The position numbers and the translations under genes were made by a program. Under the pieces are notes generated by a model. That model was not told the DNA's origin. It was given only the letters and a program-made list of their open reading frames with translations, and ran no database searches. Of a DNA stretch of 64,000 bases, positions 3,386 to 40,248 are shown one piece after another (the first letter of the stretch is position 1; each line of letters opens with the position of its first letter). Origin of the DNA: Xestospongia bergquistia. Lineage: Eukaryota; Porifera; Demospongiae; Haplosclerida; Petrosiidae. The stretch lies in assembly GCA_963965975.1 (NCBI GenBank), contig OZ014418.1:5096775-5160774 (forward strand), read 5' to 3'.

Positions 3386-5792
3386 ATGGATGCTTTAAGG
3401 GAGTATTCTCCTTCAGATGATGAGGTAACTTCAGTGTTGTTGTGTTATTACACTATATTTATCTAGGAGATACATGCAATTAATCAAGGTGAAAAGGCAG
3501 ACTCTTCTACTGACAGAGAACAGGAAAGTCAACCTAAACCTATCGATTTGCCTGTCAGGAAAGACCAGGACAGTAAGAACAATGAAAGAACAACTACAGT
3601 TACAAATGAAAGTGACCATGGAGATAAACAAAGATGGAAGAATGATTGTCCAACTTCTCCGAGAAAAAGAGATCAATATGGTAATGATACAAATGTCAGA
3701 TAATGATATTGTACAGTTAAATTGATAGTAGTAAATGTAAGATAGCACAGAGCGCAATCATATAGTTACAAATGTATAAAAAATTCAAAAGATAAAAGAT
3801 GAATGGATACTTTAGGTAAAAAACTATGTGTAATTGTGTATATATGTATACTGTATCTACTTAATTTAATGTCCTTGTGTTTAGTTAACTCCAAGCATTT
3901 AGACTCAGTGTCAAATGAGGTTATAATGTCAAGTTATTAATCCTTTGTTGTCTACATGTAGCATGGTAACATGTAAACTGTTTTTGTCTTTCTAAGCAAC
4001 TTAACTTGTCACTGAAATTATAATCCATTAATACTCTAATTTTGACAAACCCTTTGAATTTGTAATTTATGTGACAAACCTGTGCCATTAATAATCAGTA
4101 TTTTTTTATACTTGTAATAGTTATATTGCTAACCTGATCACTATAATATCTAGGTCAATCAAGACATCACACACACTCTTCTGATAAAAGGTCAGGACAT
4201 AGACGAGATAGGTCACCATCTCATCGACGTCATCGATCACGCTCACCACACACTAAATCAAGACACTCTTATCACAGTAGGTAAGGAAGGGTTCTCTGCC
4301 TGTAATGTAGATCTTATAGATGTAAAAGATACCAATGTTGCAAGACAAGGTTTCTTCACACATATGATATATATTTTTCATTTAGTGACAAACGCAGGAG
4401 GTCTTCTGATAAGACACAAGGTTGGTTAGATAAAACAACTGAAAATTATTGTTGTAATTGATTAGATGTGTACAGAAAGGAAACATCATCCAGTGATTCC
4501 AGTCAACAGAGAAGTCAAGGTATGAATATCATCCTCATTTTGTTTTGATAATACATGTAGCTGTCAGGGTACATGCTTTATTACCGTATACTGGAAAATT
4601 TTCAAGGAGGAATGTTTTTATGCTTTTACAAATATAAGCCATTTATGAAATTAATTATTGATTAATAGGTGTGGTATGTCAATGGGAATACAATTCGTGA
4701 AAAGTATAATTCAAAAATGTCCCAAAAAACTTTTTAGAAATTTTTCTGCCTTGAAAATTTCCTGGTATACAGTATTGTGTTAAATACCATCACATTAATG
4801 GGTGTTACTTATTCTATAGATTCTAAGCAAAAATCAGAGAAATTTCCAACATCAAATCAAAGTTCAGAACAACTTACACTTCCAAGTTATCTTAATCCAG
4901 GTGCTGTTAATCCTAAACAATTCCAGTCAACACTGGACAAGAGAAAACTTTTATGGAACAAAAGTAAAAAGGTAAAAATACATGCCATTATGAAAATTAT
5001 CACTTATATTGTGTATACTGAATAGGATTTTCAAGACTTAAAGACAGTTCTCTATAGCTTTCTAGTTGATATAACAATAAGTCAATTAAATATACTAATT
5101 AGAATTATGTGGGCTGTAATATTTCCATGTCAAGTGTGGTAGGACCTGCATATGTATAGACCATTTACATCAATTTGACCTTTGCAACAACACAATTCCA
5201 TTGATGTACACCACAAACAATAAATCATTGATTACCAGATTGTACTGAGCCTACTGACATCCTGATTTCCTTATAATAAATAACATGGCTTAGTAATGTC
5301 TTTTAATGTTCCTGTTATGCTACTTGTAAAATACCTTCAAGTTTATTTTAGAGACGAAAGTACATATATGGTGTGTTAACTAGCAATTGTACTATAATTT
5401 CATCGCAGTAGTATTATTTCTTTTATTAACATATTATGTTGCTATTGTTAACTTCTAATTTCCTCATTTTATCAGGAATCCTATTTTCACTTGTCTAGAC
5501 TGATCAATCATGGAATAACTGGGAATCTGCTTCATTTGAAGGTGATATTGGTGGAGAGACACAATCTAAGTTTAGACGTCTCATGGGAATAAAGAGCACA
5601 TCATCTGAAACTAAAACAGCAGATGAAACAACTCATAAGGGTACAACTTTACTGCGTAACTTAGAATCACAGTATGAGACATCTCGTGTTATGACTCATT
5701 TAGCTAAAGGAGCTGGTCTAGGGTATGGAGTGTCTTCTCAGATCACACAAACTGAAGTGAATCCAACTGATACTGACAATCTTCATGAATGA
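3386..5792 (+). CDS. RSRC2: RSRC2-like arginine/serine-rich protein with SMAP C-terminal domain
   Basis: Seven exons join in frame: 3386-3424, 3467-3680, 4154-4280, 4386-4420, 4476-4519, 4820-4971 and 5499-5792. The N-terminal part is polar and low complexity. Exons 3-5 are rich in Arg, Ser and His (RDRSPSHRRHRSRSP), as in nuclear RNA-processing proteins. The C-terminal third matches the small acidic protein (SMAP) region of RSRC2: LPSYLNPGAVNP, then a KLLW motif, then FRRLMGIKS, and finally LESQYETSR...GLGYG near the end. Human RSRC2 has the same order of RS-rich region then SMAP domain. Its molecular role is poorly defined; a splicing-related nuclear function is inferred from composition. 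The start is the only ATG before the first donor and gives a short 13-codon first exon. Confidence 0.85.
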
Positions 5793-6914: not shown

Positions 6915-9450
6915 CTATAATTCTTCATGTAGAACTCCACTGTCTCCTCGCTCCCCCTGTCGTTTTTGAGGATTTCCAGTCACAGCAAAATGGAGCAATC
7001 TTTCTTCAGATTGTTGAAAACTTTTAAGAGTCACTATTTCCTAAAAATAATAATTACATTAATACTATATTTATGGTTCATGCCTTACTTCTCTGGGAAT
7101 AAAATGTTCTGGTGAAACATTCAGTTTGGTACGGTAGTACTTTATATTATTAGCCATTACAGTATCAGAAGGCTCTAGAGCACGGAATGTTGATGCTGCT
7201 TCTGCTGCTTTGTTCAACAAATTTACTGTACAAAGTAGAAATTATATCAAAAATTGAATGGTTAAGTATATAATTGTATACTGGATCCTATAGGCAATAT
7301 ATATTTACAATATAGAACTAAATTAGACAACTCACATTTGAAGTAGTTGAATTGAAGATAATGAAAGTGCCCTGAAAGATATTTATCAAAGAATTCACCA
7401 TCCACAGTAGCAGTACGAACACGACAATCACTACGACATTTCAGATATGAAAGTACAATACTTCTTAAAAGTTCATAGTACTCTAATGAGTCTGGTAAAA
7501 TCTCGTACTCTTCCAGTTTGTTGTCTTTTTCAGGACTAACATCATCTCCAGTAATGTTAATGACATTGATGTCATCGCATAGCAGATAGCAATCATTAAG
7601 ACTATTTTTGTATTCCTTGATACCTTTTTCTATAAGAACAGCTGACTGTAGCCATTCACCACTTGTGTAGGCACTTCTAGCACTTGTGTAGAATTGCTGG
7701 TGACGCATTTTGCCAGGTTCCCTTGAAACAACATCTTCTTTACTCAGACCCAATTTTTTACGATAGTAAGCTATACTGTTAACTATCATTGAGTCATTAG
7801 GATGATAAAAGTAGTATGTAAATGCACATTTAATTCCTTCTTCTAAATTACCAATCTGATGGACAAAAATGAATATTATTATTTATATGAGTTGGGTTAC
7901 CTGGTAGTATGAATAATGAAGATAGGAGTAAGGAACTCTTTTTTTAAATTGTTCCAATACAAAAGGATCTGGATTTCTTTGTGAAGGAGGCAATTTCTCT
8001 TTCTTGCATTGTTTAATACACTGAGCTTTAATAGAGTATTTCAAAAAAGACAAGACATTGGTATCAAATTCAGCCAACAAAGTCTCTTGCTTATTGGTAA
8101 GGTATTCTGCAAAAAAGAAAGTTATAAGTTATGAAAATTTAAAAATAAATACAGTTGTGATTCTTATATATATATATAAACAGTACAAATTAGCTGAAGA
8201 ATTTAGCTGTGTCTATTAACATTTATATTTCTAGGACCATGTCCTGGAAAAGTGGTTTATAGTATCTACATGAAGCATTAGTCTGCCATAAAATAAGCTA
8301 ATTACCTTGCTGCTTTGAATTTTCACAACTTTGCAAGCAATGCTTGGTGTGGTTTCGGTACTGCTCAAATATTTTCAAAGATTCTTCTATCATTTCAATA
8401 GCTTTCTGCCAATTTTGATCTGTATAATAGGTCAAACCTTGATTCCATACATCTTCTAGGCTTGGTATTACCCCGAGGGTTTGTTTATCCTAATAAATAA
8501 TATAATTAGTGGTGCAAAATATATCATTTCACTGATATATTGTAGTAACTCACTCTTTCAAGTTTTATTAATCGAATATAAAACACTAATGTTGAATTTG
8601 GTGGTATGATTTGTCCTACACCTCTTTCTCCATATCCAAGATGAGGTGGGATTGTAATTCGTCGACGCTCCCATAAACATGTTCCTACCAATCCCTTATC
8701 CATGCCAGCAATAATCCGACGTTGACCCAATGCCACAATGTAAGGTGAATTGTAATCGAAGCTAGAATGATAAGTTGTTATTATAAATTGAAAGATGTTC
8801 CTTTATTTATTATATTAGCACTGCAGACATGAATATTTTGGCAATAAAAAAATTTTCATGAATTTCACTTATTTCTTGAAAATTTTAACCATAAAGCATA
8901 CAGAGTCAATGGACAGGGTTCAGTCTCACAAAATTTCAGCATTGAAATTTTATTTCAATATAATTCACAACTATCCCAAAACTTTTACTCATACAGTTAT
9001 ATTGATAGTGACAATTTGATTTCAAGCACTCGCAAGCTTCTGGACATAGAAATATCACAGCATGGCATGCATTGCAGATCTTTGAAATTTCTTCCAGTCC
9101 AGCAGCAAGTTAATACTATAAATCATGGTCTTAAAATAGTTCCATGCAAACTGCAATACATTATTTACCTTTGCCCAAACACTTGTCCACTATTTCCAAG
9201 CCGACCAACATAATGATAATGAACAATATCATTATTCTGAGCTTTATACTGACACTCCTTTGGTTTGTAAGTCGTCAAGACTTTCAATCCATCGCCCCAA
9301 TCTTCTTCTGTAAGCATATGTTATATATATATATGATTCTATTATCTGTAACAATACCGACTAACCGATTCCTTCATTTGTTGTAAGAACAGTAAGATCT
9401 CTAAGACAACAATGAAGAACTATAAACAGAAGAACAGTCAAGCACTTCAT
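6915..9450 (-). CDS. Secreted-pathway FKBP prolyl isomerase fused to CRTAP/leprecan-like CXXXC region
   Basis: Eight exons on the minus strand: 9450-9366, 9307-9169, 8761-8554, 8489-8306, 8106-7901, 7855-7336, 7225-7089 and 7040-6915. Exon 1 encodes a signal peptide (MKCLTVLLFIVLHCCL). Exons 2-3 encode one FKBP domain (NDIVHYHYVGRL...GQVFGQSFDYNSPY, then IPPHLGYGERG and IPPNSTLVFYI). Exons 4-7 carry TPR-like helices with four CXXXC motifs (CLQSC, CIKQC, CYLLC, CRSDC), the hallmark of the leprecan family (prolyl 3-hydroxylases, CRTAP, SC65), including repeated 'N..AYYR..L' blocks. The 2-oxoglutarate dioxygenase domain of P3H is absent. The protein ends HEEL, an ER-retrieval type tail. In vertebrates CRTAP works in a complex with P3H1 and a separate isomerase, cyclophilin B; here an isomerase is on the same chain. 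A role in ER folding of collagen-like proteins is inferred. Confidence 0.85.
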
Positions 9451-9552
9451 TACTTACGACGAATTAAAACATGCAAGACGAGAACAATGGTCACCGCATG
9501 AAAAGGAGTAAGTCCCTGAAATTTGACTTAATTGAGCTTAAGAAGATTTAAG
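9451..9552. promoter_or_regulatory. Left remnant of a shared bidirectional promoter
   Basis: These 102 bp separate the FKBP-leprecan start codon from the transposon. With 17485-17518 on the other side they make a pre-insertion gap of about 136 bp to the GALNT2-like start codon, like the other head-to-head gaps here. No specific factor site is called. Confidence 0.5.
9545..9552. repeat. Target site duplication, left copy
   Basis: AGATTTAA directly precedes the GGGT terminus of the transposon and is repeated exactly at 17477-17484. Confidence 0.85.
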
Positions 9553-9628
9553 GGTCCTTCTTGGTGTAACTTGCCTATGATGACATCAATGATGACATCA
9601 TATGACATCATAGGGTTAATAATGGTAG
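9553..9628 (+). repeat. Left terminal inverted repeat (76 bp)
   Basis: It begins GGGTCCTTCTTGGTGTAACT and ends GGGTTAATAATGGTA. It contains repeats of TGATGACATCA. By eye it differs from the right TIR at five positions. Confidence 0.9.
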
Positions 9629-12364
9629 TGTGATGGATACTGGTATTGTAGGAAATACTGGTATTCTAGGTAATACTGGTATTGTGGGTAATACTGGTAT
9701 TCTAGGTAATAATGGTATTGTGGGTAATACTGGTATTGTGGGTAATACTGGTATTCTAGGTAATGATGGTATTATAGGTAATATAGGTATTGTAGGTAAT
9801 ACTGGTATTCTAGGTAATATTGGTATTGTAGGTAATACTGGTATTGTGGGTAATACTGGTATTCTAGGTAATGATGGTATTGTGGGTAATACTGGTATTG
9901 TGGGTAATACTGGTATTCTAGGTAATGATGGTATTATAGGTAATATAGGTATTGTAGGTAATACTGGTATTCTAGGTAATATTGGTATTGTAGGTAATAC
10001 TGGTATTGTGGGTAATACTGGTATTCTAGGTAATGATGGTATTGTGGGTAATACTGGTATTGTGGGTAATACTGGTATTCTAGGTAATGATGGTATTATA
10101 GGTAATATAGGTATTGTAGGTAATACTGGTATTCTAGGTAATATTGGTATTGTAGGTAATACTGGTATTGTGGGTAATACTGGTATTCTAGGTAATGATG
10201 GTATTATAGGTAATATAGGTATTGTAGGTAATACTGGTATTCTAGGTAATATTGGTATTGTAGGTAATACTAGTATTGGGGGTAATACTGGTATTGTAGG
10301 TAATAATGGTATTCTAGGTAATACTGGTATTGTAGGTAATACTGGTATTGTGGGTAATACTGGTATTGTAGGTAATATTGGTATTATAGGTAATACAGGT
10401 ATTGTAGGTAATATTGGTATTGTAGGTAATACTGGTATTCTAGGTAAAACTGGTATTCTAGGTAATACTGGTATTGTAGGTAATATTGGTATTCTAGGTA
10501 ATATTGGTATTGTAGGTAATACTGGTATTGTGGGTAATACTGGTATTCTAGGTAATGATGGTATTGTGGGTAATATTGGTATTGTGGGTAATACTGGTAT
10601 TCTAGGTAATGATGGTATTATAGGTAATATAGGTATTGTAGGTAATACTGGTATTCTAGGTAATATTGGTATTGTAGGTAATACTGGTATTGTGGGTAAT
10701 ACTGGTATTCTAGGTAATGATGGTATTATAGGTAATATAGGTATTGTAGGTAATACTGGTATTCTAGGTAATATTGGTATTGTAGGTAATACTGGTATTG
10801 GGGGTAATACTGGTATTGTAGGTAATAATGGTATTCTAGGTAATACTGATATTGTAGGTAATACTGGTATTGTGGGTAATACTGGTATTGTAGGTAATAT
10901 TGGTATTATCAGTAATACAGGTATTGTAGGTAATATTGGTATTGTAGGTAATACTGGTATTCTAGGTAAAACTGGTATTCTAGGTAATACTGGTATTGTA
11001 GGTAATATTGGTATTCTAGGTAATATTGGTATTGTGGGTAATACTGGTATTCTAGGGAAATGATGGTATTGTGGGTAATACTGGTATTGTGGGTAATACT
11101 GGTATTCTAGGTAATGATGGTGTTATAGGTAATATAGGTATTTTAGGTAATACTGGTATTCTAGGTAATACTGGTATTGTAGGTAACACTGGTATTGTAG
11201 GTAATACAGGTATTGTAGGTAATACTGGTATTCTAGGTAATACTGGTATTGTAGGTAATACTGGTATTGTAGGTAATACTGGTATTGTGGGTAATACTGG
11301 TATTCAAGGTAATGATGGTATTATAGGTAATATAGGTATTGTAGGTAATATTGGTATTCTAGGTAATACAGGTATTGTAGGTAATACAGGTATTGTAGTT
11401 AATACTGGTATTTTAGGTAATAAAAGTATTGTAGGTAATACTGGTATTGTGGGTAATACTGGTTTTGTAGTAATACTGGTATTGTGGGTAATACTGGTAT
11501 TGTAGGTAATACTGGTATCTAGGTAATACTGGTATTCTAGGTAATACTGGTATTTAAGGTAATACTGGTATTCTAGGTAATATTGGTATTGTGGGTAATA
11601 TTGGTATTGTTGGTATTCTAGGTAATAATGGTATTGTGGGTAATACTGGTATTGTGGGTAATACTGGTATTCTAGGTAATGATGGTATTATAGGTAATAT
11701 AGGTATTGTAGGTAATACTGGTATTCTACGTAATATTGGTATTGTAGGTAATACTGGTATTGTGGGTAATACTGGTATTCTAGGTAATACAGGTATTGTA
11801 GGTAATACTGGTATTGTGGGTAATACTGGTATTCTAGGTAATGATGGTATTATAGGTAATATAGGTATTGTAAGTAATACTGGTATTCTAGGTAATACTG
11901 GTATTTAAGGTAATACTGGTATTGTAGGTAATATTGGTATTGTGGGTAATACTGGTATTGTAGGTAATACTGGTATTCTAGGTAATAATGGTATTGTGGG
12001 TAATACTGGTATTGTGGGTAATACTGGTATTCTAGGTAATGATGGTATTATAGGTAATATAGGTATTGTAAGTAATATTGGTATTCTAGGTAATACAGGT
12101 ATTGTAGGTAATACAGGTATTGTAGGTAATACTGGTATTTTAGGTAATAAAGGTATTGTAGGTAATACTGGTATTGTGGGTAATACTGGTTTTGTAGTAA
12201 TACTGGTATTGTAGGTAATACTGGTATTGTAGGTAATACTGGTATTCTAGGTAATACTGGTATTCTAGGTAATACTGGTATTTAAGGTAATACTGGTATT
12301 CTAGGTAATAATGGTATTCTAGGTAATACTGGTATTGTAGGTAATACTGGTATTGTGGGTAATT
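9629..12364 (+). repeat. Left 18-bp minisatellite array, with 522-bp higher-order repeat
   Basis: There are about 150 copies of GGTAATACTGGTATTGTA and variants, changing mainly at base triplets three (ACT, ATT, GAT, AAT) and six (GTA, GTG, CTA, ATA). Because 18 is divisible by three, the array is open for long stretches and encodes GNTGIV/GNTGIL hexapeptides, including one 477-codon frame from 9630. Frames are broken by small indels (near 11057, 11467 and 12194) and by TAA-containing units (near 11554 and 11905). A 29-unit block is duplicated: the rare unit with GGGGG at 10278 recurs at 10800. Confidence 0.9.
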
Positions 12365-12624
12365 TTTAAAGTAATAATATCCGTAGTATTAGCCCTATAT
12401 ATGTACATGGAATTAGAAATATAACATTAACATGACTTAATATTTTATTAATCTTTTTATTATTTTAATTTGGAAAAATAAATAATTTTGTACCTATCAA
12501 TATTATGTATATATATATATTATGTGTGAATAAGGTACAAGTGCTTCATAATTTCATCTTCCATGTAGGATGCAGAATATAACAGCAATTATACAGCTTC
12601 CAACATTTCAAGCCTTGTTATGTA
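12365..12624. other. AT-rich 5' region of the transposase gene
   Basis: Unique, AT-rich sequence between the left array and the transposase frame, with a short TA run near 12509. A possible upstream frame from 12570 ends in a stop near 12640, so the true N-terminus of the transposase is unclear. Confidence 0.4.
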
Positions 12625-15418
12625 GTGACATACCAACTTAGTGTCAACCTCCTTATATTACCACATGTAATTTGTTGGCACCCTTTAATACAATTTCCAT
12701 TGTTAACAGAATCATTAGAAGCATGTCCAACTGACAAATGTACGGGAAAGCTTCGGTTCCATGAGTGGGCATGTGGTCAGAGCAAAGGCAAGCAACCTAG
12801 ACTTTTGCACAATATCCAACACACAGTATTACTTGCAGGGGCCATCTATAAATGCACTGAAGGACAACATACAATATATTCTACTGATCCTCTAATCCTT
12901 CGGAAGATTGGTATAGTTCACTTACCATTCTTTCTTTTACATCGTTCTGGATTTACACGTACATTTGTACATTGTGTTGTTAGTCTTGCTCATGAAGGCT
13001 TAAATATAAAAGCAATTGCTCGACATATTCAGAGCCTACGAGAAGAGTATGCTGCTGAACTAATTGTCAAATTGGTGAAAGACTGCAGCTGCATTGGTAA
13101 AGAATTGACACAATCAGAAATTGATTCCCTCATTGCCTCAACCTCTGTTTCTTCAATTGCACAACCATTTCCATCTAATGACATTATTGCACGATGTTTC
13201 ATTATACATTTTCAACAAAATGAAAACATTTATTCAGCACATATGATCAATTTATCCATAAGAAAAAGCATCCGGATATTTACGACCTGATGGAAGGTGG
13301 GTCACCCAGTATGGCAGTGTGTTTATGGTGTTGAATGAAGAAGGTGAAGTTGTAACTTGGCAATTTACCAACTCAACCTCAATTGATGAAGTGCAATCGC
13401 TATTGTGTAGTCTAAAAGAAAGAATCAAAGTTTCTGAAGATAGCCATTTGACAATATATGTTGACAACTGTTGTCTTATTCGATCCAAGCTGAAGTTAAT
13501 ATTTGGAAACGACACAATTGTGAAGTTAGATGTATTTCATGCAGTACAGCGTGTAACACGGGCTATGTCAAAAAGGCATTTGCTGTTTTTAACCTGTATG
13601 AATGACTTCAAAATGATTTTTAGAAAGCCAAATGATATTGGACGAAAAAGGACAATGAGTACACCCACTGTCGAACAAATTCTGGTAAACATAGAAAACT
13701 TTGTCACAAAATGGAAAAATGCTGAGCACAATGGACATAAAATTCTAACTGAAAAGGTTATGGAGCAAATATACTCTTTGCAGGTTCATATCAGACGTGG
13801 TTGCCTATCAGATATAGAGCCTGGTGGTGGAACCAATTACAATGAGGCTTTACATCGTTACATTAATCCCCACTTTAGTCATGCAGGTCGAATTGGACTT
13901 CCTCTAGCATATGCTATTCTGACAATTCTATTGTACAAGCATAATTGTAAGAAGTTACCTAAAGCATCCAAGTCACTGTCTGCCACGTTAGCAACAAAGT
14001 GCAGGTCCACACAAATGGTATCAGCTTCATTTGGAATTGTAGGAAGAGATAGTTATGGAAGAAGAGACCATTGGATGAGAATCAAAATAGATGACTTGAT
14101 AACAAAAGGTGATGATTCAGAGAGTTTATTGTATTTCACTAGTGATGGTGATGATTGTTTTACAATGCCCATTACAGATATTCAACAAATAGTTAAGAAT
14201 GCACAGTTTTCAACTGATGTTGCAAAACACATGCAGAAAATTTCAGATCAATCACAAACCTTCTCCTACAGAATGATGCCATTCATGTCTGGGGTGCCAT
14301 CGATGTACTTCCACACTTTAGACAACACCACAAATCAGAATTGTATGACACATGACAAACGTCTAACTGGTGTATTAGATGCTTGGAACATGTGCAAACA
14401 TGAAATTGAAGGAGATGGCAATTGCTGTTTTACAGCTGTGGCTTTTGGTCTGATCACCATCAGTACAAACCTAACACGTGAAAACAAACAGTTTCTGCTA
14501 TCATGTGGAATTGATCTATCAATGAATATGCAAGCCATAGCAACTCAACTTAGATATCTTGCTGTAGCTGAGTGGACTGAGAATTATTGTTACTATCAAG
14601 ACTTTGTGCCTAGTGTGGACATTCAGCAAGAAGCTTCCAAGTTTCTAGCCTCTGGATTCTACTACGGGGACCTAGCAGACACAATGATTTTGGCATTATC
14701 AAATGCTCTTCAAACTACCATAATAGTATTTTCATCCATTGAATGCCATCCAGTTTTCTGTATATCACCACGCACACAGACAATTTCTATGCCAATTATG
14801 GTATCATTTACACAGTATGGCTCTGGGCATTATGATGGGGTACTCATTAAGAGTAAAGGTGACCAGACTCCAAAGGTGCATCTGACATGTAGCTGTGGAA
14901 AAAATGACAAAGAAGGCAAACCCCATTGCCAAGAAATAAAGTGTAAGTATACAACAGTCATCCGTTGCGCTTGCTTGAAAAGCAAAAGAGCCTGTTCTGA
15001 ATATTGTCGTTGCAAGAACTGTGGTAACAAACTTGGAAAAAGAGTAGTACATGAAGTCCAACAACGCAAAAGGAGGAAGCATGAATGGCAAATGTTTCAT
15101 CACCTCAGTAGTATTGAATTTGCAGATGGTAAGCAGGAACATTTATCAGCAGGACCATTAACTATCATGGAGTTTTTTGTTCTGGAAAATGTACTAGTTT
15201 ACTGTGAGGAAGAAGCAATAGAACCTACTCCAGAAAACATTTCACTATTATATAGACAAATTTTAGCATCAACAATAGTGTCCAGTCCTGCATTACCTCT
15301 AAGTCAGAAGAATGAAAAGGACATAAGTAAATTTCTCGTCATGCACCAAAAAAATCTAGCTACCTTCCAAAGGCTGTGCAGAAATCAACTTGATTGGAAC
15401 ACAAGTAAAGAATTATAA
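12625..15418 (+). pseudogene. DDE-type transposase with OTU and CXC domains, one frameshift
   Basis: Two frames, 12625-13290 and 13319-15418, belong to one protein. They are joined by a one-base shift in the A-rich run near 13260 (AAGAAAAAG), after which the sequence continues GYLRPDGRW. The N-terminal part has a zinc-like segment (CPTDKC) and a conserved core (STDPLIL...HLPFFLLHRSG). The likely RNase H-fold core follows, with candidate acidic residues in TIYVDNC, KLDVFHAVQR and GGGTNYNEALHR. Next is an OTU cysteine-protease domain with DGNC (EGDGNCCFTA) and a matching histidine motif (GSGHYDGV). A cysteine-rich CXC/tesmin-like block (RCACLKSKRACSEYCRCKNC) precedes the basic tail. The N-terminus is uncertain. 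An unrecognised intron instead of a frameshift is possible but no good splice pair is seen. Confidence 0.75.
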
Positions 15419-15583
15419 AAAAAAACATTAAGAAAAATCAATATGTATAATTATATAGACATTGCATTAATTTCAGTTCTAATGTAATCAACATAATCAA
15501 ACATATTACGTAGTAGACAGTGTTATTCTATTATTATTACTACGAAGAGAGTATATAAAATACCAAATGTTGTTATCACTTAT
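15419..15583. other. 3' region of the transposase gene
   Basis: Short unique AT-rich sequence between the transposase stop and the right array. No further gene is seen. Confidence 0.5.
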
Positions 15584-17400
15584 TTACTTACAAGTATTAC
15601 CTACAATACGAGTATTACCTACAATACCAGTATTACCTACATTACCAGTATCACCTACAATACCAGTATTACCAACAATACCAGTATTACCTACAATACC
15701 AGTATTACCAACAATACCAGTATTACCTACAATACCAGTATTACCTACAATACCTGTATTACCTATAATACCAGTATTACCAACAATACCAGTATTACCT
15801 ACAATACCAGTATTACCTACAATACCTGTATTACCTATAATACCAGTATTACCTACAATACCAGTATTACCTACAATACCAGTATTACTTACAATACCAG
15901 TATTACCAACAATACCAGTATTACCTACAATACCAGTATTACCTACAATACCATAATTACCTACAATACCAGTATTACCTACAATACCTGTATTACCTAT
16001 AATACCAGTATTACCTAGAATACCAGTATTACCTACAATACCAGTATTACCAACAATACCAGTATTACCCACAATACCAGTATTACTTACAATACCAGTA
16101 TTACCTACAATACCAGTATTACCTACAATACCATTATTACCTACAATACCAGTATTTCCAATAATACCTGTATTACCTACAATACCAGTATTACCTACAA
16201 TACCAGTATTACCTACAATACCATAATTACCTACAATACCAGTATTACCTATAATACCAGTATTACCTAGAATACCTGTATTACCTAGAATACCAGTATT
16301 ACCAACAATACCAGTATTACCTACAATACCTGTATTACCTATAATACCTGTATTACCTACAATACCAGTATTACCTACAATACCATAATTACCTACAATA
16401 CCAGTATTACCTATAATACCAGTATTACCTAGAATACCTGTATTACCTAGAATACCAGTATTACCAACAATACCAGTATTACCTACAATACCAGTATTAC
16501 CTACAATACCTGTATTACCTATAATACCTGTATTACCTACAATACCAGTATTACCTACAATACCAGTATTACCTACAATACCAGTATTACTTACAATACC
16601 TGTATTACCTATAATACCTGTATTACCTACAATACCAGTATTACCTAGAGTACCAATATTACCTACAATACCATTATTACCTACAATACCTGTATTACCT
16701 AGAATACCAGTATTACCTACAATACCTTTATTACCTACAATACCATTATTACCTACAATACCTGTATTACCTAGAATACCATATTACCTACAATACCACT
16801 ATTACCTACAATACCTGTATTACCTAGAATACCAGTATTACCTACAATACCTTCATTACCTACAATACCATTATTATCTACAATACCTGTATTACCTAGA
16901 ATACCAGTATTACCTAGAATACCAGTATTACCTATAATACCTTTATTACCTAGAATACCAGTATTACCTACAATACCATTATTACCTAGAATACCAATAT
17001 TACCTACAATACCTTTATTACCTAGAATACCAGTATTACCTACAATACCATTATTACCTATAATACCAGTATTACCTACAATACCTGTATTACCTAGAAT
17101 ACCAGTATTACCTACAATACCTGTATTACCTACAATGCCAGCATTACCTAGAATACCAGTATTACCTACAATACCAATATTACCTACAATACCTGTATTA
17201 CCTACAATACCTGTATAACCTAGAATACCAGTATTACACACAATACCAATATTACCTAGAATACCAGTATTACCTAGAATACCAGTATTACCTAGAATAC
17301 CTGTATTACCTAGAATACCAGTATTACCTAGAATACCAGTATTACCTACAATACCTGTATTACTTATAATACCATTATTATCTATAATACCAGTATTACC
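15584..17400 (-). repeat. Right 18-bp minisatellite array, inverted relative to the left
   Basis: There are about 100 copies of the same 18-bp unit as the left array, on the opposite strand (top strand TACAATACCAGTATTACC). The unit mix differs, with more GTA and ATA third-position variants and fewer GAT units. Minus-strand frames such as 16072-15584 and 17655-16771 read GNTGIV repeats and are by-products of the period. Indels break the frame (for example near 16783). Confidence 0.9.
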
Positions 17401-17476
17401 TACCATTATTAACCCTATGATGTCATAATATGTCATCAATGATGTCATCATAGGCAAGTTACACCAAGAACCACCC
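17401..17476 (-). repeat. Right terminal inverted repeat (76 bp)
   Basis: On the minus strand it begins GGGTGGTTCTTGGTGTAACT and ends GGGTTAATAATGGTA, pairing with 9553-9628. Confidence 0.9.
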
Positions 17477-17484
17477 AGATTTAA
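17477..17484. repeat. Target site duplication, right copy
   Basis: AGATTTAA follows the CCACCC end of the element and matches 9545-9552 exactly. Confidence 0.85.
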
Positions 17485-29754: not shown

Positions 29755-32700
29755 ATGACTGATGTTATAGTGTTTTCACCGTCCTTCAACAAGCAATGCA
29801 AGCTAAGATTGACTGAATCAGCTCTCAATGCTGAAGAACTAGATGCTGATGATGCAAAAACGTTGTTTTCTGTTAATCTAGAGGATGTGTTGGGTCTAAA
29901 CGTTCTTTCCAAGCCAGCTAATGGAAAACCAGCAGTGTGTCTGGCTGAACTGTGTACCTACTCTCTGGTAAAACGTTGGTCTCACAAGAAACCCTCTCGA
30001 ACTTTAAACAGAGAATTGCTTGAGTTTGCTGGATCTGATAATTTTGAGGACAATAAACATACAGCTGATGAGTGGCGAAATGCTATAAAGACCCAATGTT
30101 TGAGAAATGACCAAAAAATATTTGTGTCAAATCAAGGTTAGACTACGTAATTCATTATGAATAATCACATCCGTCATTCCTTTTATCATTCAGATGATGA
30201 TGAGAATGAGCTATCTCTAAAGTCTATCCTGTTAATCATTAATCCATTCTCTGGTACTCGCAAAGGTGTTGAGCTCTATCATAAGGAAGTACAACCTATC
30301 TTTGAGGCTGCTGGTATCAATATTGTTAAAGAAGTTATTTCAGGTCAGTAATGGTAATACCTGACTTGTATACTAGATACACACTGTGTGCAATTAAGTA
30401 ACACTTGATCAGGTTTGACTTTTACTAGCATATGGTATGTAATGTAACATGCTATATACTAACAAGTAATTATGTATATTTAATACACATTATATGGTTT
30501 TATATATTAGAGCGTCATGGTCACATCATTGAGATAGTGAAAACCTTTGATATTTCTACTATTAATGGTATTGTAGCTGTTGGTGGTGATGGTACTCTCA
30601 ATGAGGTAATATAACTTATTGTTACTAATTGGCCAGACAAACAGTGTGTGTCAGATAGTCGTAAGACGATGTATATATGTTGTTATACATTGTTTTACTC
30701 CATTAATTCAACAATGGATTAATCATTCTATTGTTGTTATTTTCAAATTGTTGTAAGGAAGCATGGACTGTTGATGCATGTTATGTAAGGGGCTTTATTG
30801 TTGTTTCTAAGTATGTTTAAAGCTACTGACACAAAAAACTTATTGCTACCTCACCTACCTGACATGTTCAGCTTACCACTGGCAAATTATATAATCTCTA
30901 TAGCTTTAGTTAGTGCTTCACTAAAGTCGGTGTCTTCCAAAACAATTGTAGGATGATTTTTTCAATTATAGTCTTGTTAGATTAATTATATCTTCATAAA
31001 ACAATCTTAAGAATTAATAAAGTTTGTGTAATTACAATGTAACTACTGGACTAGGCTGATTTTATATTATTACATTGACATGATTAAAAAATGCTCTTAA
31101 ATGTATTAAAACAACTATATGAAAGAGATTGTCTAACATTATTGGGGAAGTTTGTTATTATTTCTCGCTATCTAGAGTATTTAAATTTATGACTATGCTG
31201 GTAGCCCACAAAAAGGAAAGAATCATTTTTTTACATTAATATAAGTGTTAGATATACCATATAGCAGTCAATGACTTAGTTCATAATATTAGTTGTAAGT
31301 AGCTATAGGCTACTAATGTTTTCTAGTTATGTGTAATTAACTAGACATGTATCCATGGAATTAAAGAGTTATGATAAAATATTGGCTATGTCTTTATAAA
31401 CATACTTAGTTTATAGTTTTTCTCTTAGGTTGTGAATGGCTTAATGTCACGACCAGACTGGCAGACTGCTATTACAACACCAGTAGGAATACTTCCATCA
31501 GGTTCTGGTAATGGTTTTGTGGCATCACAACTACTTGAAATAAAGTATGACAACCTTTTTTCTGCCTAACATACTATGTTGTCCAATTTTTTACAAGATT
31601 TGTTTTGTTTATTAGGCAGGTGTAACATTGCCTACTGTATAGTTGGTACATAGGGATACCATGACATTCTTCTTTTCTTCTTCCTTTTAGTGCTTGCCTG
31701 CAATTAGATCAGAAATCAGCTTCTATCCTGTTTTTATATAAATATAGCTAGGAATTGGCGTAAGTATTTTTTTGTGTTAAAAGCTTTTGGTCATGTTTTT
31801 GTAAGAGGCTACTGAGACTGAACCACAAGACTAGTCAAGCTTGACATTGGAGGGACTGAATCACTTCTTATTTCTATATGCTAGTATGCTAGGAGTGACA
31901 CAAGTTATCTGCTGCTAAAGCTCCACCCTAACATGTAGAAATGTATTACAAATTCAGTACACACTGTGGTCCTGATACTCTCACTTTCACAAGGGCAAAG
32001 TCACACCTAATGTCTCATAACAGGATAGATAACCAATCTGCATTTTTTTCTTAATGAAAATAATTACTAATACAACTAAAATTGGGTCACTTGGGAATTT
32101 ATTTATTAAGTCTTATTAAAATCACTGCTTTAGTTAGTGACGTGGTTTTAAGGAGACTTATAAAAGCACTCACTTCAAATGAAATAATTATTAATACCCT
32201 TTTAGTTTTGGAGTTATTATGGTCTATAGAATATAGAGTGCCATCCCTACATAGGCTATACTATACTACTGCCTGTCTGATATATCTTTGCTTATTGATT
32301 TCAAGCAGAAACTGTAAATAGTTTATTACTTTAGGGAAGACTACAGTATTGCTAATGCTGCTTTTCAAATTGCCAGAGGAGGAGTTCAACCTTGTGATCT
32401 TGTGTCTATACAGACTGTATCCAATCATTGCTACATGTTTATGACATTTCAGTGGGGCTTTTTTTCAGATGTGGACATTGAGTCTGAGAGATTTCGAGTA
32501 CTTGGAGGATATTTGAGAGATATTTCAGCTGCAGTTTGGTCAATGCTACGAAAACGTGCATATGAGGGTCGACTAAGTTATCTTCCTCTTCAAGATGACT
32601 CCTCCCCTACTATTGAAGAAGAGAGCATGCGCAAAACTGATAATAATGAAACCAATGGTGAAACTGCAACATCAAGTAATTGGCAAGGCCCTCCTGACAA

Positions 32701-33091
32701 CCTTCTTCCTTTGAATCTCTCTGATCCAGTTCCCAGCACATGGAAAACTATAGAGGGTAACTTTGTCTCTCTTTTAGTGATGTTATGTGCTTGTGTAACT
32801 GATTTCTACACAGTTCTACCTGACCTGTCAATAGGATCAGGAGAAATTGGTATACTGTATTCTCTAGATGATATCACACGATGGGAGATGTTTAATCAGA
32901 TGACTTCTGGTAATGGGCGATTTTCTGAATTTGAGAGTGTTCACCAGATTCGTACTCGAGCATTTCGTTTGGAACCAATCACACCAGGGAGAATCAGTAT
33001 GGATGGGGAGCTATTAGAAGAATATGGTCCTTGTCAATTTCAACTTCATTCTAATCTTTTGCATGTTTTTTCTAGGAAAAGAAGAAGCTAA
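29755..33091 (+). CDS. SPHK: Sphingosine kinase, upstream tandem copy
   Basis: Five exons: 29755-30136, 30194-30343, 30511-30605, 31429-31544 and 32335-33091. The lipid-kinase domain runs C1 (SILLIINPFSGTRKGVELY), C2 with the nucleotide-binding GGDGTLNE, VVNGLMSRPDWQTAI, C3 with LPSGSGNG, and C4 with the GVQPCDLVSI segment that includes the sphingosine-contacting Asp. FSDVDIESERFR...YEGRLSYLP and a C-terminal RAFRLEPITPGR with an EYGPCQ end are typical of SPHK1/2 and not of ceramide kinase. It phosphorylates sphingosine to sphingosine-1-phosphate. The start at 29755 (MTDVIVFSP) is chosen because the second copy begins at the same residue, though an in-frame ATG lies four codons upstream at 29743. 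Only introns 3 and 4 are long (about 0.8 kb each). Confidence 0.92.
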
Positions 33092-39100: not shown

Positions 39101-40248
39101 GACCTTTAGCTACTTGTCATATGACTATTGGTATGTGATTGGATAGAGTTGACATACCACACTAATCACACTAGGACTCCAAGCCAGACTGCCTTTTCAT
39201 TAGAGGGGAATGGCTGTCTGGGGGGGACAAGAAGCTTTGAAGTTTGATCAGCCACACCCATCATTATTGTGCTTAACTAGTAAAGTCTTCATTGGCTGTC
39301 ATTTGCATTACCATTTAATATATGGCAAAACAATTATGGGATTACCTGATGTGCTTTGTGAAATGTTTTGTTTGGAATAAACTATTTTACCCTCAAATGT
39401 TTAACTATATAGTAATGTTTATATATAAATGTATAATAGCATATCCCTTCACTTATTGGTATAAACTGTGAATACTTACTTGTTATAATTTCAGGGAAGA
39501 CTACAGTATTGCTAATGCTGCTTTTCAAATTGCCAGAGGAGGAGTTCAACCTTGTGATCTAGTGTCTATACAGACTGAATCCAATCATTGCTACATGTTT
39601 ATGACATTTCAGTGGGGTATCTTTTCAGATGCAGACATTGAGTCTGAGAAATTTCGAATACTTGGAGGATATTTAAGAGATGTTTCTGCTGGACTTTGGT
39701 CATTGCTACGAAAACGTGCATATGAGGGTCGACTAAGTTATCTACCTCTTCAAGATGATTCCTCCCCTACTATTGAAGAAGAGAGCATGCACACAACTGT
39801 CAATAATGAAACCAATGGTGAGACTGCAACATCATGTAATTGGCAAGGCCCTCCTGATGACCTTCTTCCTCCAAAGCTCTCTGATCCAGTTCCCAGCACA
39901 TGGAAAACTATAGAGGGTAACTTTGTCTCTCTTGTAACAGTGCTATGTGCTTGTGTAGCTGATTTCTACACAGTTCTACCTGACCTGTTAATAGGATCAG
40001 GAGAAATGGGTATATTGTATGCTCTAGACAGCATCACACGATGGGAATTGTTCAATCAGTTAGCTTCAGGTAGTGGGCGATATCATGAATTTGAGAGTAT
40101 TCACCAGATTCGTACTCAAGCATTTCGTTTAGAACCAATCACACCAGGGAGAATCACTGTGGATGGGGAGCTATTAAAATATGGTCCTTGTCAATTCCAA
40201 CTTCATTCTAATCTTATGCGGGCTTTCTCTAGGAAAAGAAGAAGCTAA
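34514..40248 (+). CDS. SPHK: Sphingosine kinase, downstream tandem copy
   Basis: Five exons in the same arrangement as the first copy: 34514-34895, 34993-35139, 35229-35323, 37797-37902 and 39495-40248. Exon phases are identical, and by eye the protein is roughly 85-90% identical to the upstream copy. All catalytic landmarks are kept: INPFSGTGKGVELY, GGDGTLNE, LPAGSGNGWVASQ, GVQPCDL and RLEPITPGR. C1 reads SGTGKG here but SGTRKG in the upstream copy, so this one is nearer the family consensus. Introns 3 (2.5 kb) and 4 (1.6 kb) are much longer than in copy one and contain a TA run and dispersed repeats. Tandem duplication followed by intron growth is the simplest reading. Confidence 0.92.
35885..36130. 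repeat. Duplicated intronic segment
   Basis: A block beginning CCCACAAAAAGGAAATGATC and ending near GTCATAAT occurs twice in this intron (near 35877-35950 and 36046-36127). A related copy lies at the equivalent place in intron 3 of the upstream kinase (near 31206-31290). This shows the introns are homologous and that the block duplicated again in the downstream copy. Confidence 0.6.
36145..36182. repeat. (TA)n microsatellite in sphingosine kinase intron
   Basis: Uninterrupted TA dinucleotides over 38 bp in intron 3 of the downstream kinase. Confidence 0.95.
38277..38350. repeat. Short direct duplication
   Basis: Two adjacent copies of a block of about 37 bp containing AGAAAAATTT(G/C)TAAGATAA and CAATCAAAATTATTC, in intron 4 of the downstream kinase. 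Confidence 0.6.

Follow-up and report, generated by a model that had tools for sequence, protein, structure and literature searches.

A foldback-type transposon with long minisatellite arms in the genome of the sponge Xestospongia bergquistia

Structure of the element

The window analysed here is a stretch of 64,000 nucleotides of the genome of the sponge Xestospongia bergquistia (contig OZ014418.1, positions 5,096,775 to 5,160,774), and its positions 9552-17476 are occupied by a transposon of 7,925 bp, the subject of this work. A preliminary description, made from the sequence alone, had proposed a 7.9-kb element with an 8-bp target duplication and inverted arrays of one 18-bp repeat, and all of these parts are present (Table 1). 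The terminal inverted repeats (TIRs), which it had given as 76 bp long and starting at 9553, do match as inverted ends, but their left boundary moves by one base to 9552 and their length becomes 77 bp. They align over 77 columns with five mismatches and a score of 67, against a maximum of 15 among 500 shuffles. The left TIR contains about three copies of a 12-bp unit, ATGATGACATCA (Tandem Repeats Finder [TRF], 9577-9610). The longest ungapped inverted match between the two arms spans 1,194 nt at 89%, and a gene of about 2.8 kb, read rightwards, lies between them. These results confirm the earlier observation of a foldback-type element.

Table 1. Features of the element in the window. L009 and L012 are two further copies of the element in the same genome.
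Feature	Position	Strand	Basis or remark
Target site duplication, left copy	9544-9551	none	AGATTTAA, exact match to 17477-17484
Left TIR, 77 bp, end type GGGTCC	9552-9628	+	93.5% identical to the inverted right end
Left arm, array of about 152 units (152.1) of the 18-bp repeat GGTAATACTGGTATTGTA and variants	9637-12363	+	TRF, 86% matches, 0% indels; unit table
5' part of the putative transposase gene, open frame of 235 residues	12583-13287	+	Open reading frame list; relatives in two other copies
DDE-like core	13262-14389	+	Motif positions
Junction of the 35-bp deletion, window copy	13272-13273	+	Alignment with L009 and L012
Candidate second Asp, YVDNCC	13457-13474	+	
DxxH in LDVFHA	13526-13543	+	DVFH 22 residues after the YVDNCC Asp
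Candidate Glu, NEALHR	13841-13858	+	
OTU-protease-like domain	14390-14887	+	Pfam OTU E 0.0031, 18.4 bits vs cut-off of 23.3; profile 2-128 of 128
Cysteine-rich CXC-like stretch	14888-15025	+	Pfam TCR E 5.2, hence chiefly by motif and by eye
Right arm, inverted array of about 101 units (100.9) of the same 18-bp repeat	15589-17403	-	TRF, 89% matches, 0% indels; inverted-repeat search
Right TIR, 77 bp, end type GGGTGG	17400-17476	-	
Target site duplication, right copy	17477-17484	none	AGATTTAA

Copies, target duplications, and empty sites in the host genome

We searched the host's own genome (146 Mb, 21 contigs) with the left end as query. It matches many places, among the matches listed, and 20 regions (L009-L028) were taken for study. 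Six two-ended copies have the whole plan of ends, arrays, and core: the one in the window and five more, L009 (7,112 bp), L010 (7,886 bp), L011 (8,284 bp), L012 (6,054 bp), and L013 (3,621 bp). The same ends are thus present elsewhere, and a TIR core pattern allowing up to three mismatches finds 154 genome sites (none with the reversed control). The loci L014-L020 and L022-L028 have a single end or decayed ends. L021 was considered as a seventh two-ended copy and excluded, its second end being decayed and the 8-bp duplication absent. On contig C6, one TIR end adjoins the same flank at six places (L016, L017, L018, L019, L025, and L028), mostly with a short array, none being seen in L025. Since all six share this flank, the end must have multiplied along with another repeat that contains it.

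The target duplication is consistent: five of the six two-ended copies have exact 8-bp duplications, each different from the others, and cross-pairing the left and right flanks of different copies gave no agreement (0 of 30). The copy L011 is inserted within a tandemly repeated stretch (about 500-748 and 9033-9901 of L011) whose minus strand, judged by eye, would encode ankyrin repeats. When the two flanks of this copy are joined, they align through the junction with two adjacent units of the repeat (about 9229-9512 and 9652-9901), the matches being 84% over 292 columns and 82% over 254. Because these paralogous empty units hold a single CAACAAAC and the junction is gap-free, exactly 8 bp were duplicated at the insertion. 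The duplications, together with these empty sites, give good support to a cut-and-paste movement with an 8-bp stagger.

Unlike ends and miniature relatives

All six two-ended copies have one GGGTCC end and one GGGTGG end (GGGCGG in L011). The same ends are found in miniature inverted-repeat transposable elements (MITEs) of about 185 bp, of which there are at least 72 in the genome. Exact-pattern counts in this size range gave 72 elements with a GG and a CC end, none with two GG ends, and none with two CC ends. Three of the four MITEs checked have exact 8-bp duplications, one in L050 and two in L051; L053, with one end only, was left out of the MITE count. Ends that differ in this way hint at distinct roles for the two termini during synapsis.

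The two MITEs of L051 (102-286 and 297-479) are adjacent, with overlapping target duplications. The MITE of L050 (C1:16113100-16114400) has the ends GGGTGG and GGGTCA and lies, with the target duplication TTAAATTT, within a copy of a transposase resembling those of Mutator-like elements (MULEs). A TIR beside a MULE domain (C1:16114241) was therefore discarded as a sign of a MULE inside the family: it belongs to this 183-bp MITE, inserted in another, MULE-like, copy.

The gene and its decay

The main open frame of the gene runs from 13262 to 15415 and encodes 718 residues. Upstream of it, the 5' frame has a CPTDKC motif at 12724, followed by another Cys at 12853, by eye a possible zinc ribbon. 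This frame is lost at the 35-bp deletion of the window copy, where the reading frame changes. The 35 bp are present in L009 and L012 and carry there the motif CLDHTFK, with a candidate first catalytic Asp. The signature DxxH is known from transposases. From the order of the motifs, CLDHTFK and YVDNCC would hold the first and second Asp of a DDE enzyme, followed by its DxxH and by its Glu in NEALHR. The candidate spacing is of 73 residues between the two Asp (L012) and of 127 between the second Asp and the Glu (window). The OTU-like domain has its Cys motif, GDGNCCF, at 14411-14431 and its His motif, GHYDGV, at 14825-14842. Judging by these motifs, the gene looks like one for a DDE transposase with OTU-like and CXC-like domains. 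The gene thus brings in a combination, these two domains beside a DDE-like core, that we did not meet in the literature searched.

No copy in the assembly looks able to encode a complete transposase. Apart from the window copy, all share an 817-bp deletion (window 13584-14400). L009 and L012 additionally lack 477 bp further 5', and L010, L011, and L013 lack most of the 5' part of the gene. Across the six copies, the cores differ by 0.9-1.0% among L010, L011, and L013, by 2.2% between L009 and L012, and by 4.9-6.8% otherwise. Since the 817-bp deletion is common to five copies at different genomic sites, the deleted form has spread, and from the multiplication of a deletion derivative we infer that transposase was supplied in trans at that time. 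The family is thus real and formerly active, with no intact copy seen in the assembly. A protein search of the genome finds the six copies and one decayed relic, L049. This relic (4000-5563, i.e., C1:11838499-11840062) is a relative of the transposase with about 30% identity and many stops, accompanied by a TIR remnant (81% over 48 columns), and suggests a long residence of the lineage in its host.

A foldback-type DNA transposon

The ends, the duplications, the empty sites of L011, the inverted arrays, the dispersed copies, the deletion derivatives, and the MITEs together give good support to the reading as a foldback-type DNA transposon. The features of this class are all present: long inverted arms with tandem repeats, fixed outer ends, a duplication of constant length, and several dispersed copies. 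The three outcomes that the preliminary description had named as fatal to it were each tested, and we found the reverse: other copies exist, their duplications agree in length, and the arrays are not unrelated satellite DNA (see below). The element is very probably one member of a low-copy family of foldback-type DNA transposons moved by a putative DDE transposase with OTU-like and CXC-like domains.

Several results weigh against parts of this explanation. L012, although two-ended, has no 8-bp duplication, and neither has the MITE of L052, whose ends are present. The comparison with empty sites, which the preliminary description had suggested, was successful for L011 and gave none for the other five copies within the window and L009-L028. 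The end asymmetry of the MITEs counts as one strong regularity and not as 72 tests because they share a founder. The core has no match among the Pfam and NCBIfam transposase models, for Pfam by hmmscan at E up to 10, a negative to be read with the HMMER filters in mind, as these discard the majority of matches beyond about E 0.1. The segment of the first Asp, missing from the window core, was taken from L012 and scanned separately. Lastly, the core and the OTU-like part, each modelled from a single sequence, reach a mean predicted local distance difference test (pLDDT) score of 37, with no confident RNase H or OTU fold.

Kinship of the transposase

The body plan is that of a foldback element, while the protein lineage is unplaced; foldback structure alone is no guide to the kinship of the transposase. 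The preliminary description had called the transposase different and unnamed. This agrees with the silence of the family models, and the motif layout nevertheless resembles that of the MULE/hAT/P group. The classification by profiles that it had proposed gave no hmmscan match at E up to 10 to the Pfam models of MULE, hAT, THAP/P, or KDZ. Its suggestion of a new foldback lineage is supported as far as the viral, phage, and prokaryote collections reach, in which the protein has no relatives. A search against solved structures gave one match (E 0.36), dismissed as chance.

The most likely placement, which we put forward tentatively, is a diverged enzyme of the MULE group. The element would then be a Mutator-like foldback of the MULE/Phantom/Rehavkus group, comparable to Tm1, that drifted below detection by Pfam and acquired the OTU-like and CXC-like domains; this concerns the kinship of the enzyme only. 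The 8-bp duplication is within the range of 8-11 bp described for MULEs; Rehavkus and the aphid Phantom carry minisatellites, and the MULE Spectre has 74-bp TIRs and an 8-bp duplication (parts of PMC6446971 that we consulted). Tm1 is described with array-bearing TIRs, differing terminal motifs, and MITE-like forms (PMC3169594, in part), and the DVFH of the window copy follows the candidate second Asp at 22 residues. Against this placement, PF10551 has no hmmscan match in the core at E up to 10, and its search across the whole genome gave 113 matches, none at the element (150 of the 195 candidates were scored). Pfam scans revealed no FLYWCH, PHD, or SWIM match. Aligned directly to one MULE from this genome, the core scores no better than chance allows (z of about 2, with 26 and 28 of 500 shuffles as good).

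It is rather unlikely that the core represents a transposase lineage beyond the present family models. Such a lineage would have attached an OTU protease and a CXC DNA-binding domain, would need two unlike ends (GGGTCC/GGGTGG), and would have recruited a very long inverted array of binding sites, with arrays that flip or copy the interior while staying confined to the element.

Less likely still is a core belonging to hAT, P, KDZ, or another named superfamily with duplications of about 8 bp. Duplications of this length are usual in hAT and KDZ elements, and Galileo, itself a foldback, is a P element (PMC3573991, in part). As said above, no hAT profile matched, whether for the core or for the C-terminal dimerisation domain, and neither did those of KDZ or, with the true N-terminus being uncertain, of THAP/P. 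The genome search with the KDZ profile (PF18758) gave no match, but its controls were silent too.

Overall, we regard this foldback family as new, with a structure of a known kind (Tm1, Galileo, and Rehavkus are comparable) and an unclassified transposase. We did not meet the element in the literature searched; most subscription papers and Repbase lay outside that search, so we make no claim that it is unpublished.

The 18-bp arrays

We searched the genome for exact matches to a 29-bp pattern of the array and counted them in 22 regions (the window, L009-L028, and L049). There are 304 matches, 133 forward and 171 reverse, against none for the reversed control. All but one (303 of 304) fall within 15 of these regions, each of which matches the end of the element as well. 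The array repeat is therefore almost confined to the element family. The lone match outside the counted loci is at C1:25798530-25798558. It is thus very improbable that the arms are ordinary satellite DNA hit by the insertion of an unrelated transposon: arrays of 0.5-3.5 kb do resemble satellites, but they share their loci with the element ends, are enclosed by the target duplications wherever a copy has these, and are missing from the empty sites of L011.

The arms comprise between 27 and 193 units of 18 bp across copies. The units follow GGTAWTNNN and, in 1,540 of them, positions 1-4, 6, 10-13, and 15 show the same base in 96-99%, in contrast to the variable positions 7-9 and 16-18; some units were taken in a half-shifted phase, which inflates the variation at positions 5, 7-9, 14, and 16-18.

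These arrays can be read as coding for a collagen-like Gly-X-Y protein (GNTGIVGNTGIL), and an open frame of 477 codons across the window's array (9630-11063) matches Pfam Collagen with E 5.4e-64; both arms of L013 are also stop-free in one frame. We rejected this reading, which has hardly any chance of being right: the glycine codon GGT, at both of its places, keeps T as its third base in 98.6% of units, the variable codons change at all three positions, and the unit walk finds at least one frame shift in 10 of the 12 arms. The Pfam match reflects the composition of the repeat and calls for caution in automatic annotation.

Exchange of sequence between the arms

The arms exchange sequence because they are inverted copies of each other. 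In L011, two segments of one arm, 470 and 346 bp long, recur in the other arm as exact inverted copies, with their order kept. Exact matches of this type reach at most 173 bp in L013, and 61-79 bp in L009, L010, L012, and the window copy. Pooled 60-mers had pointed to a copied arm of about 1.5 kb in L011; this was discarded, as a megablast check at 95% identity gave no match for any copy, L011 included, and the exact matches amount to the two stretches above. L010, L011, and L013 have an inverted copy of the 3' inner flank (80-105 bp) beside the 5' array, resembling the TIR1-F1-F1-TIR2 outcome described in Galileo (PMC3573991, in part). Arms of different copies have from 0 to 61% of distinct 54-mers in common. 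For the 5' arm of the window copy, the highest figure against another arm is about 5%; the 3' arm of this copy shares 46% with that of L010.

The GGGTCC end is on the 3' side of the gene in L009 and L012, and on its 5' side in the other four copies. The array edge beside this end is alike in L009, L012, L010, and L011 (85-97% over 110 columns, TIR included). The simplest reading of these sequences would be that the interior of L009 and L012 was flipped between the arms, relative to the ends. Two features do not suit one clean inversion. Beside the GG end of L009 and L012, the edge of the array also looks CC-like (GTGAGAT, GTGTGAT), and the GGGTCC end of L013 keeps only about 51 bp before the array. 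An exchange of termini in L009 and L012 is a possible alternative to one clean inversion. Whichever way it occurs, the exchange between arms reshuffles arm length, arm sequence, and the orientation of the interior.

Proposed mechanism

The putative DDE transposase would excise the element at its GGGT ends and insert it into cuts staggered by 8 bp. The same enzyme would also mobilise deletion derivatives and MITEs in trans, with one GGGTCC end having to pair with one GGGTGG end. The arms might exchange sequence by conversion, by recombination (crossing-over), or by gap repair after excision. In Galileo, some tandem repeats hold THAP-binding sites for the transposase (PMC3688188, in part). By analogy, the 18-bp arrays could be sets of many transposase-binding sites, a function that we consider possible and somewhat short of an even chance. 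The variation among units, mostly in the NNN of GGTAWTNNN, would fit a constraint on binding sites and would equally fit the amplification of a few variants.

Comparison with known foldback elements

In Drosophila FB/NOF, the foldback arms likewise contain tandem repeats, and a transposase gene of MULE type goes with them. The arrangement of arms and gene in FB/NOF and in FARE is like that of the sponge element, with transposases of MULE type; both were compared by description only. Arabidopsis FARE, a foldback with tandem-repeat arms and a MULE-type transposase, is cited in PMC3169594, which places FARE and Tm1 in the MULE lineage. The comparisons drawn from this paper and from the others named below are limited to the parts consulted. 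Tm1 of root-knot nematodes (Mutator/Foldback, Phantom-like; PMC3169594) has TIRs of composite build that hold short tandem repeats in varying number, differing motifs at the two termini in most copies (24 of 39 and 20 of 22 elements), MITE-like relatives, and a transposase-bearing form beside others without one. It differs in having 1-9 units, mostly of 14 bp, against 27-193 of 18 bp per arm here, and in its 9-bp duplications and its FLYWCH and MULE domains found by Pfam, neither of which matched in the sponge element with its 8-bp duplications.

Galileo (P superfamily; PMC3573991, PMC3688188) also has long, internally repetitive TIRs that are extended by copying inner sequence across, but with few repeats of about 210 bp and with THAP and a P-type transposase, domains that had no match here. 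Tetris of Drosophila virilis (PMC4079207) is a foldback with tandem repeats in its TIRs and 8-10 bp duplications. Its 220-bp repeats also form satellite arrays and no transposase is known for it in that source, whereas nearly all array matches here are within element loci. Among the elements described in PMC6446971, Rehavkus is a MULE-like outgroup with a minisatellite ahead of its 3' TIR; it differs from the sponge element by a 9-bp duplication, a PHD finger, and a minisatellite on one side instead of both. The Spectre MULEs of arthropods are similar in TIR and duplication length and were compared by description only; they have a C2H2 zinc finger and a MULE transposase, and arrays are not mentioned in the part of the source consulted.

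More than one transposase lineage, indeed several, has given rise to foldback arms. The six copies of this one family display several steps: very long arrays of short units, exact copying between arms, interior flips, and unlike ends kept in each. The family makes the function of the arms and the need for differing ends directly testable.

Other features of the window

Outside the element, the window contains a 47-bp tandem repeat (257-460) whose final unit continues into an inverted copy of itself (AGCATGTGCACTAAGCC / GGCTTAGTGCACATGCT). Two open frames on the same strand, 7 kb apart (32402-33091 and 39562-40248), are clearly similar by eye and look like a tandem gene duplication.

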